Origin: Nitrososphaera sp.
Lineage (GTDB): Archaea; Thermoproteota; Nitrososphaeria; Nitrososphaerales; Nitrososphaeraceae
DNA length: 64,000 bases
Direction: 5' to 3'
NCBI GenBank assembly: GCA_029263715.1
Contig: JAJUFP010000002.1
Span: 124,001 to 188,000 of the forward strand
The translations under genes were made by a program, and so were the position numbers. Shown here one piece after another: positions 5,398 through 60,380 of the stretch. The notes below the pieces were generated by a model. That model saw nothing but the letters and a program-made list of their open reading frames with translations. It was not told the DNA's origin and made no database searches. Position 1 is the first letter of the stretch. Every line of letters begins with the position of its first letter.

Positions 5398-7434
5398 TTA
5401 TAACCATCTGCTTAGGGGTTTCCTAATTGAATAGATACTTTCAGTGGCAATGTCTAATACTTTAGCGATATCATCAGGGCTTCGATAAACATGATGTTTT
5501 TGAAGTAATTTGTAGAGTATTCCAGCCACTATTACGCTTGGTCTGCGGCCCTGTAGTGCGCCACTTGTAGTTATTTTTTTAGCGACTTCAAGCGCTTCAT
5601 TCTTTATGGATTCTGATAGGGCCAATCTTGCACACGCCAAGTGAATGTGCTTTTCCAATCTATCTTGAATGTCTAGGTTGACACCAGTCGGCACATTTAG
5701 GACATTCCGTTTTCTTGGTTGCAATAAAACGTCCTCACCTTTTCTAACCTTCCGTAGAAACTTCATTCTTTCAAGATAATCAATTCTATTACGAATCATT
5801 TTCTCTGTGATATCATCTCCCTGCAGCTCTTCGACAAGCTGTTTAAGAGTTATTTCCTTGTCTCTAATCTGTTCATTTATCTCATTAGTAAGCATGTGAC
5901 TAACTAGTCTCTTATAGAAGGGAGGACGAATACCCGTCTGATCGTAGAGATAATCCAAACTTCTAACTACAATATCTGAAAAGTTCATCTTTGTGTCATG
6001 TTCTTGCTTCACTAATTCATCAAATACCATATCCCAGTTGAATCCCTGACTTTGTGCTATTCTTGCCATATCTTGGATGTCCCCTTCTCTCAATGTTACG
6101 CTTTTGAGTAGGAAAACATCTTCATTTTCCATAATTCCCAGACTTAATTTACCATATGTTTCAGTTCTAGAGCGCTTTCTCATTCTATCAGAAAGGATTA
6201 ATTTGCGCGCGATTCGAGTCTTGAAGATATCCATTCTGCTTCTGGCAGGATGTGTCAGCACATCCGATGGGTCTATTCTAAGGTCGTCTTTGGATAGGTT
6301 ATGTTTGCTGATTGAATCATAACCCATCTTTTTTAGGGATGCGACTATGCCATTGAATGAATCTTCATCGGCAACAACTATGTCACAGTCCTTAGTAGCA
6401 GGTTTGAGGCCTTTGAGCCGCATATTTTCGCCTCCAAACAAATAAGCTTCAGCTTTTGCTTCAAGATGTTTGCCTATGTCTTTGAACAGATCAGGGTAAG
6501 CGGTAGGTAGCGTATAGTAATCTCGTGGAATATTATAGAGTCTAGCTTTTTCTTCGAATTCTTCCCTTGGAAGAAAAAGATTAGGGTGTTTTAGTTCACC
6601 ATTCCTGATGTAACCTTCTACATCAATCCAAATATCAGCTATTCCAAAATTCCTCGCCACGTTGCGTATACTCAGCAGATCCAATTTGTTCCTATTTTTG
6701 AGATAAAATAATGTTGCAATCACAATTCCATTTTTATCGTTGTTGGTTTTGGCTGCAATGATAGCGTGCATTAGGACATCTTCTAAATTTAGAGGTGCTT
6801 TCTGTTTGACATAGTAATCATGCGTCGTATGATATTCAATACCATAATCTAAGAACAATGAAAATCCCGTTAGTTCGCCATCCGCTCGCTTGCCTTTTGG
6901 AACTTTCTTCAAGGTCCTAAAGGCATCTTGGTATATTATTTCAGCATAGGTTTCAACATTCCTTCTTTCACTCTCTGTTTTGAGGTACTTTGCAAACAGG
7001 TAAAGCTGTTCAGAATCGTCTCTGTTTATGCTTAATTTACCTTCATTATACCTTCTGACAGCTCCTATTGATTCTAGTTCAGATACTGCTCTCTGAATAG
7101 TTCTTAAGGATAGTTTGGATGAACGTTGTATGCCTTCTATGTTCTCCGGTTCAGTCAGATTGATAAAGACCTGCTCATTTGAATCATGAAGTAACTTCTC
7201 AATGTCAAATTTGGCAGATATGTCTCTGAAAAGGATAGTCTTCGAATTTGACTTGAATGTTATGGCAGAGCCAATTTTTTCTATATAGTCTTGATTTGCT
7301 AATTCCTTCACCAAATTATTAAACTGCCATTTCTTAACATTGACAATCTTCATCAACTCCTGAGAATCGGTTATTCCATTTCTGACTGCTTTAAGCAGGG
7401 TTATGGCCGAGGGGTTCACTTTTTTCAGTGTCAT
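5398..7434 (-). CDS. Winged-helix / nucleotidyltransferase-like / TFIIB cyclin-fold fusion protein
   Basis: A 678-residue protein of unusual make-up. Two helix-turn-helix-like segments lie in the first 170 residues (SQELMKIVNVKKWQFNNLVKEL; RSSKLSLRTIQRAVSELESIGAV). Near residues 355-385 the GGENMRLKGLKPATKDCDIVV sequence resembles nucleotidyltransferase folds of the DUF6036/MNT kind (GG followed by D-x-D). The last ~95 residues read as a single TFIIB cyclin repeat: an LACARLALSESIKNEALEVAKK helix, a GRRPSVIVAGILYKL helix, then a DDIAKVLDIATESIYSIRKPL recognition helix. The ATG at 7434 was preferred to a longer frame because AATTTTATATAA lies about 20 bases upstream, giving a leaderless start. 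Base composition is clearly more AT-rich than the flanking genes. The fusion is seen; a role in transcription or RNA/DNA modification is inference. Confidence 0.8.
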   Translation of the reverse strand: MTLKKVNPSAITLLKAVRNGITDSQELMKIVNVKKWQFNNLVKELANQDYIEKIGSAITFKSNSKTILFRDISAKFDIEKLLHDSNEQVFINLTEPENIEGIQRSSKLSLRTIQRAVSELESIGAVRRYNEGKLSINRDDSEQLYLFAKYLKTESERRNVETYAEIIYQDAFRTLKKVPKGKRADGELTGFSLFLDYGIEYHTTHDYYVKQKAPLNLEDVLMHAIIAAKTNNDKNGIVIATLFYLKNRNKLDLLSIRNVARNFGIADIWIDVEGYIRNGELKHPNLFLPREEFEEKARLYNIPRDYYTLPTAYPDLFKDIGKHLEAKAEAYLFGGENMRLKGLKPATKDCDIVVADEDSFNGIVASLKKMGYDSISKHNLSKDDLRIDPSDVLTHPARSRMDIFKTRIARKLILSDRMRKRSRTETYGKLSLGIMENEDVFLLKSVTLREGDIQDMARIAQSQGFNWDMVFDELVKQEHDTKMNFSDIVVRSLDYLYDQTGIRPPFYKRLVSHMLTNEINEQIRDKEITLKQLVEELQGDDITEKMIRNRIDYLERMKFLRKVRKGEDVLLQPRKRNVLNVPTGVNLDIQDRLEKHIHLACARLALSESIKNEALEVAKKITTSGALQGRRPSVIVAGILYKLLQKHHVYRSPDDIAKVLDIATESIYSIRKPLSRWL

Positions 7435-7815
7435 ATAATCACAGACAGTTATATAAAATTGTGTTTTTGTGACACTGCAATAGCGTAAATCACACGTGAC
7501 TGGCGGGGACCATATTAACTGACGAAGACAGCAGAGCATGACTGGCGACAACGGGGGCGCAAGTCATGGTTCCAGCGGAATTCACGCAAGCAAATGATCC
7601 TGTCTTTATATAGTTCTAACAGGCATGCTGAGCAGTCAGTAATATGGTCTGATTTCTACGACAAGTCTCCAAGGATCGTCTTGACATCGCTAATGAATGT
7701 ATGAGTGCCTGAATCGATTTCCTACTCCTAATCTGAAACTTGTCTTGAGCGCGGCATCAGTCTCCAGACGACTTTGGCATGAAAAACTGTTATAGCATCC
7801 TACCACCAATCAGCA
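7435..7815. promoter_or_regulatory. Intergenic region with inverted repeat and TATA box
   Basis: The left part is the promoter of the cyclin-fold fusion gene (minus strand). A perfect 7-bp inverted repeat CATGACT/AGTCATG lies at 7537-7543 and 7562-7568, and the 9-mer TGACTGGCG occurs at 7497-7505 and 7539-7547. A CTTTATATAG box at about 7603-7612 points to plus-strand transcription starting near 7635, which would leave a leader of about 180 bases before the CBS gene. Confidence 0.4.
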
Positions 7816-56280: not shown

Positions 56281-58431
56281 GTGTCCGAATCAACAGACCG
56301 CATTCTCATAGACCTGTTAAAGACTCAGCTCGGATTGACAGAATATGAAACACTAGCATTTGTAAGTATTATCTATGGAAAAGGTCAGCCCGGAACAGTT
56401 GCAGAGGCATCGGGAATCCCTCGTCCAAAGGTGTACGGGGCATTAGAGTCTCTTGAGAAGCAGGAATTCATAGTAAAGACTACGGAGGGGACATACGAGC
56501 CCAATATGGCGAAATTATCTGCGATAAGAGAAGATACAGCAAAGATTACGAAAAAGTATGCTGAATTCATTGAGACACTTCATTCCTATTCAATGGCTCC
56601 CAACCGTGTTCTTTCTAACGCAAAAAAAGAGATAATCACTTTGCTAAATAGACTTGAGTATTCTCTCGAGAATGACGAAACCATAATCGAAAAGATCGAT
56701 AAGAGTTCTGCTAGGCACGCCATTATGCGGTATCAACACATGTTTGGTGTTTTTCTTCGTGAGTCCACGCGTGAACGCTATCGTATTCTCGATAACTATA
56801 TCAATAAATCAATTGATTACAATGTAAAGTCACCGGATATCATTGCTCGTTCACCTACATCTGCAATGCGTATAGGGATCGTATTGGATTCTCAGAAGGA
56901 AAGCATTATTCCGAGATTGCCTGCACTATACGCTGCTTTCGATTTGGCGGGATGCAACATGGGAATCGTAATTACAATGCAATCTGTCGATTCCAAACAG
57001 GCCGAATGGTTCAGAGAGTTTTCCCATCGAATAGATGATGAAATGAATTTTCGAGTTATTTCCATACAAGCGGGCTACGTTTCAGAGATTGAACAAATAT
57101 TACAGGAAACTGATTTCAAATGGATTGAACTCAAAAGAAAACTAGCAGATCTAGAGGACCTTTTGAATAATGCCAAAGTTGAAAGTAGGAGACTTATGTA
57201 TAAAGTAGAAAGCATTCGTAAGGATAAAGAGCTCTATCCTATTGAATACAGATCAATTTTTGCGGACATTCTTGCTAGAATTAGGAATGACCTAGAAACA
57301 ATAGAACAATTATTATCGCAACTGGATGACGTTATTTCTAGGCGTTATGGATTACTAGATAGAAAAGTTCTTTTCTCTATTTCTGACTTGACCGAAATTG
57401 AAAAACGGATTAAATATGCTGAAAACAACTTAATGGAAAAGAACAAGGAATTACAGAACTTTGAGGAAGAACTCTACTCTATTCCATCCCAAAAGAATCC
57501 GTATATCCGGTACGGTCTGAAGCTGAACCCTTTTTCTCTTTCTGTTCCTTTAGAGAAGCCCACGACTATCGTAAATCAGAAGAATGCAACAGCCTCCGCT
57601 CATGAATTTCTGAGCTCCGTAGTCCATGGTTCTGATGATAATCTCATGTTGATAATTGGTAGTCAAGGAGCAGGAAAGTCCCATTTTCTGCACTACTATG
57701 CTAATCAGATTAATACAGGGAAATTCGGTAAGGCACTTGCAATAAAAATTCAGTGTAAGAACAACAGAGACATCGTTGACTTATATCCACAGATAACTGA
57801 AGGACTGAAGTACGTCCTTCAGGAGAAGAATGAAACACAATTAATTGAAATAATCTCTAACATTCTGGCCGAGGCAGGGACACCAAGACTAGTTCAAGAT
57901 CTTATGAAGATTTTGAAGGAAATTGAATTAAAACTCGTCGCAGAGGGATATAATGGCATATTCATCTTGATTGATGAGTTTGAGAATTCGCTCCCAACGC
58001 TACACGATCAATCGGAATATCTCGGATACAGTGCTAGACGTACAGTCACGCCTCAGGCAATATCACAGCTGGATTCACTGACAAAACTTTCTGGTACTGG
58101 CTTTATTATTGCCTTCAGAAAAGAAGATTGGGAGGTATGGAAAGGCGGAATGAAGAGACAGGTTGGAAAAATTGCAAAGAAATACCTAGTCAATATGGAG
58201 CCCTTAACTGTAGAAGATTCGAAAATTTTTCTTAGCCATAGATTGGAGGCTGATGAATTTAGGTCCTCAGCAATACCCATAGAGAAACCAAAGTTTGCGG
58301 ATGAGGCAGTTAAGGTGATTTGCGAAAAAGGTCGGGGGAATCCTAGACAGATGCTACGTTATGCAAGTGCTGCCTTTAGAAAGGCCATAAAAAGTGATAA
58401 TAACACAATTCTTGCATCCCTCATCGATTAG
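56281..58431 (+). CDS. TrmB-type winged helix fused to P-loop ATPase
   Basis: A 716-residue AT-rich gene. Residues ~15-90 are a TrmB winged helix (GTVAEASGIPRPKVYGALESLEKQEFIVKTTEGTYEPN). The middle has a sugar-sensor-like/coiled part (~100-430, with a long coil at ~280-400). The C-terminal ~270 residues form an Orc/STAND-like ATPase: Walker A IIGSQGAGKSHF near 458-469 and Walker B IFILIDEFENS near 560-570, then KLSGTGFIIAFRKEDW. GTG start, leaderless. Function unknown; a DNA-binding ATPase switch is inferred. Confidence 0.8.
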   Translation: MSESTDRILIDLLKTQLGLTEYETLAFVSIIYGKGQPGTVAEASGIPRPKVYGALESLEKQEFIVKTTEGTYEPNMAKLSAIREDTAKITKKYAEFIETLHSYSMAPNRVLSNAKKEIITLLNRLEYSLENDETIIEKIDKSSARHAIMRYQHMFGVFLRESTRERYRILDNYINKSIDYNVKSPDIIARSPTSAMRIGIVLDSQKESIIPRLPALYAAFDLAGCNMGIVITMQSVDSKQAEWFREFSHRIDDEMNFRVISIQAGYVSEIEQILQETDFKWIELKRKLADLEDLLNNAKVESRRLMYKVESIRKDKELYPIEYRSIFADILARIRNDLETIEQLLSQLDDVISRRYGLLDRKVLFSISDLTEIEKRIKYAENNLMEKNKELQNFEEELYSIPSQKNPYIRYGLKLNPFSLSVPLEKPTTIVNQKNATASAHEFLSSVVHGSDDNLMLIIGSQGAGKSHFLHYYANQINTGKFGKALAIKIQCKNNRDIVDLYPQITEGLKYVLQEKNETQLIEIISNILAEAGTPRLVQDLMKILKEIELKLVAEGYNGIFILIDEFENSLPTLHDQSEYLGYSARRTVTPQAISQLDSLTKLSGTGFIIAFRKEDWEVWKGGMKRQVGKIAKKYLVNMEPLTVEDSKIFLSHRLEADEFRSSAIPIEKPKFADEAVKVICEKGRGNPRQMLRYASAAFRKAIKSDNNTILASLID

Positions 58432-58589
58432 GAGTATTGAGGAACTTCAGTGCGTGAGGCGTAGGACACACAAGTGGGAAAAACGTGCGTACCTAGATTA
58501 GTGCTTAAATAGGTGTCAATGAAAATGCGTTTGTTGTATAACGCATACAAAAAATACTGGTTTACCATATAATCGCAGGGTAGTAGTCT

Positions 58590-60380
58590 CTGAAATACCA
58601 TGTCGGCTGCTATGGATGGAGAAACGTGCCTTGGAAAGGTGAGTTCTATCCTGCAACCCTGAACCCAAAGGACTACCTTTCATACTATTCCCGAGTCTTT
58701 AATTTCGTCGAGGTCAACCTGGGTGACGGCATGGACCGGCTCAACTCCCTTGGGTCTTTGGCAGCCAACTGGCACAAACAAACCCCTGAAGATTTTCGTT
58801 TCAGTGTACGGGTCCCCTGGCCGGTGGCATATCAGAACGACGGTGCAAGCAGCCTTGGTGATTTTCTTGAAAAACTTGCACCTGTTGAAGAAAAGGTAAT
58901 TTCTGTGCTAATAGAAGTCCCTTCATCGCTAACCCTTGGCGAGGGCAGGAGCTGGCTTGATGAAACCCTCAAGCGCTGCACGTACCACGGCTACTCTGCA
59001 GCATTTCAGTTCCACCATTCATCATGGTTTCAGGACTTGACTTATAACACGTTGAAAAAGCATGGCGCCGCCCTTGTCTGGTCTGATGCCCAGCCTTACC
59101 CCGTGGTAACGTCTGAATTGCTGTATCTGAGGCTCAGTGCCAGCAACGAACCGGTCTGGATCGAAAAGATAAAGAAGGCAGGACAGGAATCGGCAGTAAT
59201 AGTCCTGGACTCGCCGGCAAAGGCCAATGCCTTTCTAAAACTGTCCGGCTTGCCAGAAAGTCTGCAGCCATCTACCAAACAGGTGTGGTCTGGCCGAGCC
59301 ATAGTGTGCGTGGACCTAAACGCCTTCTACCCTTCATGCGAGGAGTTGCGGGACCCGACTTTGAAAGGAAAGCCCCACGCCGTGATAATGACAGACCAGC
59401 AAGACAGCATCACAAAAGGCGTGGTTTCCTCATGTTCATACGAGGCAAGGAAGTACGGCGTTCGGTCTGCCATGTCGCTTTCAAAAGCCAAGTCATTGTG
59501 CCCGGATTTGATCTTGCGGCCCGTGGACATGCAGTACTACAGCAGGATCTCTGGTCAGGTTATGACAATACTTGAAGAGTTTGCAGAAGTCCTAGAGCAG
59601 GCAAGCATCGACGAGGCCTTTTTGGACTCAAAAGTTGGTACAAGCCCAGAAGAGTACGGCAGAAAGATAAAGCAGGCCATCAAGGACCGGTGCGGCCTTT
59701 TGTGCTCCATTGGGATAGCAACGACAAAGTCTGCCGCCAAGATTGCTTCTGATTTTAAAAAGCCTGACGGCCTGACGGTTGTTTACCCTGATGACCTGAA
59801 AAAGTTTCTAGAGCCCCTTGACGTTGGCAAGGTCTCAGGCATAGGACCCAAGACGCAGCAGGCGCTAAAGGAGATGGGCATCGAGACCCTTGGTCAGCTG
59901 GCAAACACAGACGTGCAAAAGCTGACCGGCAGGTTTGGAAAGAACGGCTACTGGATGTGGAATGTTGCCAACGGTACCGATGATGAGCCGGTTGTTCCAA
60001 GGGAGGACCATGTTTCGCTGAGCACCGAATACACGCTGGATGTCTTTGCAAAGGACCGGCAAGCCATTCTTGGTTTTCTAGACGAGCTGGTCGATGAAAT
60101 CCATCAAAGGGCCAAACGGCGGGGCTATTGGTTCAAGACCGTGGGTGTGAAACTTGTCAGGACGGACTTTGGCACAGAAACCCGCGAGATATCTTTTGAC
60201 GAGTTCCGAAACGATCGCCAGAGCATATCGTCTACCATAGAACCCCTTTTGGACAGATTTTCACTGGCCGACGATAGGCCTGCAGTAAGAAAGGTGGGCC
60301 TGAAGATAAGCCACCTGATCAGAGACGAAGAGGTTCAGAAAAAGAAAGACTTGCAAAAAACTTTGCTAGATTATTACTAA
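58590..60380 (+). CDS. DUF72 domain fused to Y-family DNA polymerase (Dpo4/DinB)
   Basis: A 596-residue fusion. Residues 1-~220 are DUF72 (YHVGCYGWRNVPWKGEFYPATL), a TIM-barrel of unknown activity. Residues ~230-590 are a Y-family polymerase: DLNAFYPSCEE with the first catalytic Asp, ASIDEAFLD with catalytic Asp-Glu, HhH VSGIGPKTQQAL, and little finger. The final QKTLLDYY is a PCNA-interacting peptide. CTG at 58590 is proposed as start because the DUF72 beginning lies upstream of the first GTG (58626) and a TAG stop is just before; a CATATAAT box fits. The fusion with translesion synthesis is remarkable. Confidence 0.85.
   Translation: MKYHVGCYGWRNVPWKGEFYPATLNPKDYLSYYSRVFNFVEVNLGDGMDRLNSLGSLAANWHKQTPEDFRFSVRVPWPVAYQNDGASSLGDFLEKLAPVEEKVISVLIEVPSSLTLGEGRSWLDETLKRCTYHGYSAAFQFHHSSWFQDLTYNTLKKHGAALVWSDAQPYPVVTSELLYLRLSASNEPVWIEKIKKAGQESAVIVLDSPAKANAFLKLSGLPESLQPSTKQVWSGRAIVCVDLNAFYPSCEELRDPTLKGKPHAVIMTDQQDSITKGVVSSCSYEARKYGVRSAMSLSKAKSLCPDLILRPVDMQYYSRISGQVMTILEEFAEVLEQASIDEAFLDSKVGTSPEEYGRKIKQAIKDRCGLLCSIGIATTKSAAKIASDFKKPDGLTVVYPDDLKKFLEPLDVGKVSGIGPKTQQALKEMGIETLGQLANTDVQKLTGRFGKNGYWMWNVANGTDDEPVVPREDHVSLSTEYTLDVFAKDRQAILGFLDELVDEIHQRAKRRGYWFKTVGVKLVRTDFGTETREISFDEFRNDRQSISSTIEPLLDRFSLADDRPAVRKVGLKISHLIRDEEVQKKKDLQKTLLDYY

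Follow-up and report, generated by a model that had tools for sequence, protein, structure and literature searches.

What does a DUF72 domain do at the front of a DNA polymerase? DUF72 is widespread, and the published sources, as far as they were available, either propose its function from modelling or leave it unassigned; in solved relatives the domain is a TIM barrel. The question is raised by a single gene in a 64,000-nucleotide stretch of a Nitrososphaera sp. contig (JAJUFP010000002.1, positions 124,001 to 188,000), referred to here as the window, whose numbering is used throughout.

A stop-free frame on the forward strand (58587-60380) spans the whole DUF72-DinB fusion. The gene within it (58590-60380, +) encodes a protein of 596 aa counted from a CTG codon and consists of a DUF72 domain, a DinB-type Y-family polymerase and a C-terminal PIP box. 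Translation and Pfam agree with the preliminary description in placing both parts in one frame: DUF72, IMS, IMS_HHH and IMS_C follow one another in this order, with scores above their cut-offs. The DUF72 domain (PF01904, 58599-59234), degenerate in its polar residues, scores 92.5 bits against a family cut-off of 25.3; in a control, DUF72 was matched in 9 of 14 named genomes. A short linker, delimited by alignments (59235-59309), leads to the IMS palm and fingers (PF00817, 152.8 bits, 59310-59753), the helix-hairpin-helix IMS_HHH (PF11798, 59787-59882) and the IMS_C domain (PF11799, 60015-60338), and the PIP box lies at 60354-60377, all on the forward strand.

The probable start codon is the CTG at 58590-58592 (+). 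No in-frame ATG, GTG or TTG precedes 58626 in the window gene, and the GTG at 58626 was rejected as a standard start. Position 58590 is the likely start because initiation at 58626 would leave out the first conserved strand of DUF72, and because the relatives start at the equivalent codon: among 25 fused genes this spot holds TTG in 18, ATG in six and CTG in the window, so that 23 of the 24 relatives have TTG or ATG at the codon matching 58590, and the TTG start of L007 lies one codon earlier. The prevalence of TTG could reflect a weak start codon that has been conserved. An internal start for a separate DinB was rejected as well, Shine-Dalgarno-like sites being present in 4 of 25 fused genes at inconsistent positions.

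The polymerase half is of the Y-family DinB type, with its three IMS domains present in order. It scores 279.8 against the NCBIfam DinB model PRK02406 (cut-off 256), and the solved structures that it matches best are entries named DNA polymerase IV. Residues D242, D341 and E342, numbered from the CTG codon and located in the IMS domain, are invariant across 11 aligned full-length fusions; we take them to be the catalytic carboxylates of a Y-family polymerase. With DinB / DNA polymerase IV (Dpo4, E. coli Pol IV) the protein shares the IMS domains, these carboxylates and a C-terminal clamp motif, whereas the N-terminal DUF72 domain is its own; moreover, Asn replaces the second Asp in its first motif (DLN), a substitution invariant in 11 fusions. 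PIP boxes bind PCNA. The last eight residues of the protein are QKTLLDYY, the terminal motif already noted, and by eye count a Q..[LIM]..[YF] motif lies near the C-terminus of all 38 polymerases of the fusion clade (25 fused and 13 without DUF72). The motif predicts that the fused polymerase is a PCNA client.

The fusion recurs in related genomes, which had been proposed as a check. Searching the window's genome and 40 relatives by tblastn returned the same architecture in several genomes, and a profile search covering 70 family genomes found full-length fusions in 25, spread over seven genera; the full-length relatives are 48-62% identical to the window protein. An assembly artefact or a frameshift between the domains was therefore rejected, the fusion being stop-free in these 25 genomes and in several of them lying on a single contig. 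A further 13 genomes encode the same polymerase with a PIP box and no DUF72 (G008, G010, G507 and two genera of five genomes each), although in some of them (G522, G524, G531) only ~0.3-0.4 kb of contig lies upstream, so that a separate DUF72 gene is possible in these. The fusion is partial, split at a contig end or broken in six genomes (G001, G009, G019, G499, G503, G508); ten have a paralogue-level match only (G005 and nine of genus g6), and 16 have no match at E 1e-60. In 26 of the 70 genomes neither the fusion nor its polymerase was found at the threshold used, meaning that it is missing or undetected. Twelve genomes of genus g6 are in this state, nine with a paralogue-level DinB match and three with none.

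On the DinB tree the 38 family polymerases, 25 fused and 13 without DUF72, form one clade (100/100). Four changes of state between fused and unfused are needed on it, and, given one fusion event, this reads as about four losses of the DUF72 half. That half is dispensable: several relatives keep the polymerase and its PIP box without it. A virus or plasmid origin of the fusion was rejected, since none of nine pattern matches in viral contigs is a relative and none of the 5000 best-scoring plasmid records covers 80% of the fused protein. Two genomes that carry the fusion also hold broken remnants of unfused DUF72 (L208, L209).

DUF72 and dinB also occur together as separate genes. An alignment built from five dinB-linked DUF72 proteins served to scan GTDB genomes, and the best 80 of 100 loci were analysed. 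In 38 of these a dinB frame lies on the same strand at most 30 bases after DUF72 or overlapping it, most commonly at a gap of 8 or 4 bases, although near-copies make the pair counts non-independent (among 43 dinB-linked pairs, three duplicate others exactly). The DUF72 stop of L023 is followed, after seven bases, by the ATG of dinB. The paired loci come from MAGs titled Thaumarchaeota/Nitrososphaerota, from ten labelled just 'archaeon' or 'bacterium', and from one euryarchaeal MAG (L086). The other 42 loci have no such adjoining dinB within their stored flanks, and in a broader phylum scan (300 genomes, 98 matching) dinB was found in none of the 30 best-row loci within ~1.5 kb of flank. With 42 of 80 and all 30 of the latter loci lacking such a dinB in their flanks, the pair is a feature of particular lineages. 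The proposed search for separate DUF72 genes beside dinB thus succeeded with a dinB-linked query and came back empty in the broader scan.

The gene pair of the sister lineages and the fusion may be two unrelated events, a reading compatible with the others considered below and one to which we give somewhat less than an even chance. The fused domains come out as a single clade of the DUF72 tree (99), at the end of a long branch (1.04), and this clade groups with unfused DUF72 of the same family (L114, L120) and of the related family f9 (97, with long-branch warnings), not with the gene-pair DUF72. When outgroups are included in the DinB tree, the fused polymerases are placed, with weak support (87/79), next to paralogues without DUF72 and apart from the gene-pair DinBs. 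Both placements favour separate events; however, an AU test does not reject fused and gene-pair DinB as one clade (p 0.156), and even two separate joinings of these families, both in that order, would point to a functional link.

Unfused DUF72 proteins carry clamp-type motifs of their own, with near-copies again making the counts non-independent. An archaeal PIP pattern devised after viewing the tails of dinB-linked DUF72 proteins (Q..[LIM]..[FWY], at most 16 residues from the end) is present in 22 of 43 dinB-linked and 44 of 74 other unfused DUF72 rows, against a background of 1 in 1551 other frames of the same loci. The strict PIP motif occurs in none of eight Thermoplasmata rows, and strict motifs are absent from the Chloroflexota and Myxococcota members. 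In bacteria, QLSLF-type peptides bind the beta clamp. A beta-clamp-like pentapeptide was found in the last 60 residues of 9 of 23 bacterial NNH-type DUF72 proteins (5 of 19 without L098, L099, L100 and L103, after which the pattern was devised), against 0 of 25 other DUF72 proteins and a background of 1 in 566. A fresh bacterial sample, the 30 best-row loci from the phylum of the gemmatimonadete G336 (87 of 121 genomes matching), has the motif in 28, at the very C-terminus in 26 (QMSLF, QLSLF and similar), with a background of 0 in 337. At one archaeal locus (L064:4077-4916), from a MAG titled Bathyarchaeota, the frame of a KaiC-type ATPase ends a few bases before a PIP-bearing DUF72 frame.

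The DUF72 domain of the fusion had been called intact, a statement that holds for its core but not for its polar residues. The 25 fused domains were aligned with 112 unfused ones (38 beside dinB, 74 not), and the 49 positions conserved in at least 85% of the unfused domains served as the reference set. At these near-invariant positions the fusions keep 371 of 475 hydrophobic or aromatic cells and 226 of 350 G/P/A/C cells, but only 150 of 400 polar cells. None of the 25 keeps S53, Y56, H87, H237 or G240; R150 is kept in one, N235 in two, Q118 in seven, K80 and N236 in ten each, E50 and E148 in 11 each, and R192 in 13.

These losses are captured by a 12-slot polar signature, ESYKHQERRNNH (E50, S53, Y56, K80, H87, Q118, E148, R150, R192, N235, N236 and H237 in L023 numbering); its slots were chosen after the residue counts had been seen and omit three polar positions retained by the fusions (T71, K111 and T185), so that the count of polar cells given above is the unselected figure. 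The window fusion keeps 2 of the 12 slots (it reads ELRRYEQHRDS-) and lacks the near-invariant polar, pocket-type residues of DUF72; across the 25 fusions 0-6 slots are kept. Of eight unfused rows compared, seven have all 12 (L023, L086, L100 from Acidobacteriota, L114, L115, L120 and L001) and L110 (Myxococcota) has 11. Three of the complete rows, namely L114, L120 and L001, the unfused DUF72 of the window's own genome, belong to the same family as the fusion. Some counts depend on the alignment: between the 11-fusion and 25-fusion alignments, Y56 changes from 2/11 to 0/25, P59 from 1/11 to 13/25 and N235 from 0/11 to 2/25. The Q-bearing C-terminal tail of unfused DUF72 is also mostly missing in the fusions, with Q267 kept in 6 of 25 and a gap in the window.

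Published modelling of Tm1631 gives these slots a possible meaning. Konc et al. propose, in the part of their paper available, modelled DNA contacts at Ser10, Tyr48, Gln50, Trp53, Arg54, His79 and Gln114 (PMC3828134), and the available part of a follow-up, likewise a proposal, takes Lys73 as the base (PMC4939058). As we read the alignment, Tyr48 corresponds to slot 56, His79 to slot 87, Gln114 to slot 118 and the conserved Tm1631 lysine (72 by our count) to slot 80. With this modelling as a guide, the lost polar residues probably form the DUF72 pocket. Compared with DUF72 proper (PF01904; Tm1631, 1VPQ; EF0366, 1VPY/1ZTV), the fused domain shares the Pfam match and the Trp/Phe/Tyr/Gly core, whereas it has lost the polar signature and the FNNH motif and is joined to a polymerase. 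The DUF72 fold lies near the TIM barrels of endonuclease IV and UV-damage endonuclease in the published comparisons, as far as these were available, but the nuclease role of Tm1631 is a computational proposal, and the slots of Tyr48, His79 and Gln114 are lost in most fusions.

The proposal that the fused DUF72 acts on modified nucleotides or bases before bypass therefore loses ground. Because the polar residues are mostly lost while the barrel core persists, action on damaged bases by the fused domain is unlikely, and 13 genomes encode the polymerase without the domain. Residual chemistry is possible, since two fusions, L005 and L249, retain 5 and 6 slots of the signature.

The explanation we prefer, and consider rather probable, is that the gene product is a PCNA-tethered DinB-type translesion polymerase with an N-terminal DUF72 barrel that has kept its core and lost its catalytic pocket. 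Unfused DUF72 would be an enzyme that works together with DinB on the sliding clamp; in the Nitrososphaeraceae-type family of the window a diverged copy would have been fused to DinB and lost its chemistry, and it may have been kept as a non-catalytic domain for DNA binding, positioning or docking, with a single PIP box serving both halves. Eukaryotic replicative polymerases offer a precedent, which a non-catalytic DUF72 on a polymerase would resemble: their B-subunits contain a dead phosphoesterase domain. Several points weigh against this explanation, among them that the repeated loss of DUF72 and the 26 genomes in which the gene was not found also fit a part of little importance, and that the branch leading to the fused DUF72 is long and some slots are alignment-dependent.

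An alternative is that the fused DUF72 is still an enzyme, whose altered active site handles lesions or nucleotides beside the polymerase. Purifying selection on the DUF72 half is compatible with this, as is the partial retention of E50, E148 and R192; furthermore, sixteen positions, such as E94, W122, Y132 and Q148, are near-invariant in 11 fusions and not in unfused DUF72. However, slots 53, 56, 87 and 237 are empty of their original residue in every fusion and slot 150 in all but one, the replacements at lost polar slots differ between fusion sub-clades, unlike a conserved new catalytic set, and the domain appears to have been lost about four times. We regard an altered enzyme as unlikely.

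Selection was estimated by simple Nei-Gojobori counts in eight pairs, three of which were saturated and gave no value in one or both halves. The other five gave dN/dS values for the DUF72 and DinB halves of 0.19/0.10, 0.11/0.10, 0.12/0.13, 0.11/0.12 and 0.26/0.20 (0.11-0.26 for DUF72, 0.10-0.20 for DinB), and both halves look to be under purifying selection. That the fusion is an evolutionary leftover, its DUF72 half having no function beyond tolerable folding, is slightly less credible still: the 13 genomes with the bare polymerase, a G507 gene (L276) in which the polymerase retains a DUF72 C-terminal remnant, and a broken copy with stops (G503/L275) speak for it, but dN/dS of the DUF72 half is well below 1, this half has fusion-specific conserved residues, and the fusion is retained in 25 genomes of seven genera.

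Known systems support the wider connection between DUF72 and bypass. In the portion available, Timinskas et al. 2025 report DUF72 genes as enriched to some degree beside polB2 and the DUF72 fold as related to UV-damage endonuclease (PMC11791011). Their PolB2 mutasome, with DUF72 and SRAP neighbours, has in common with the present case a DUF72 tied by gene neighbourhood to a translesion polymerase, and its dead homologue iRadA as a polymerase partner parallels the putatively dead DUF72 described here; in contrast, it involves a B-family polymerase and separate genes, and the same portion mentions no DUF72 fusion, dinB pair or clamp motif (PMC11791011). Two ammonia-oxidiser genome papers list a Y-family polymerase and, in the parts available, mention no fusion (PMC5797428, PMC10811736), and the available main text of a 2026 survey of bacterial polymerases contains no word beginning with 'DUF' (PMC12926913). 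In the open literature, covered mainly by titles and the starts of abstracts and with few subscription papers, nothing was found that describes DUF72 fused to DinB, paired with dinB as a neighbouring gene, or carrying a clamp motif.

A link of DUF72 to damage bypass, as first suggested, thus finds support outside the fused gene in the gene pair, the clamp motifs and, in the portion available, the polB2 enrichment (PMC11791011), whereas the specific lesion-processing mechanism is not supported for the fused protein. The wider DUF72 link to clamps and bypass is stronger than a description made from the letters of one stretch could know. We lean, by a little more than an even chance, towards a broader reading in which the FNNHFAG-type clade of DUF72 proteins is a clamp-bound damage-tolerance enzyme of bacteria and archaea that would dock by a QLSLF-type or PIP motif and work beside translesion polymerases, and that in one archaeal family has become a dead domain joined to DinB. 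If this is true, a 'domain of unknown function' gains a location, a partner and a pathway that can be tested. The clamp motifs and the dinB pair make DUF72 function directly testable, through clamp binding and lesion processing by the intact pair, and the fusion would be a case of an enzyme beside a polymerase seemingly turned into its non-catalytic part.

The surroundings of these genes are varied. Five window neighbours of the fused gene have no match in 12 loci compared (~1.5 kb of flank or less). Just upstream of it, 56281-58431 encodes a 716-residue protein with an N-terminal TrmB-type domain and a weaker C-terminal AAA match; nothing matching this protein lies next to the fused gene in those 12 loci. 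Elsewhere in the window, a 717-residue frame (5398-7551, -) has a C-terminal TFIIB repeat as its sole Pfam match. Among 20 proteins scanned as neighbours of dinB-less DUF72 genes, one is a DNA ligase D (L142) and one the KaiC-type ATPase of L064, and the other 18 have no repair link or no match; at this locus (L142:2229-3701) the DUF72 gene follows the ligase, which includes a 3'-phosphoesterase domain. Other Thermoproteota DUF72 proteins (L227-L237, e.g. L233:953-2179) are extended at the C-terminus by ~150 residues that include a conserved HxCxDW...CKH motif, zinc-binding in look, for which no fitting Pfam domain was found in three scanned. In L227, L232, L233 and L234 a second, divergent DUF72 paralogue of the G[CA]GGWxYF type adjoins the first, and in three of the four the two genes are divergently oriented.
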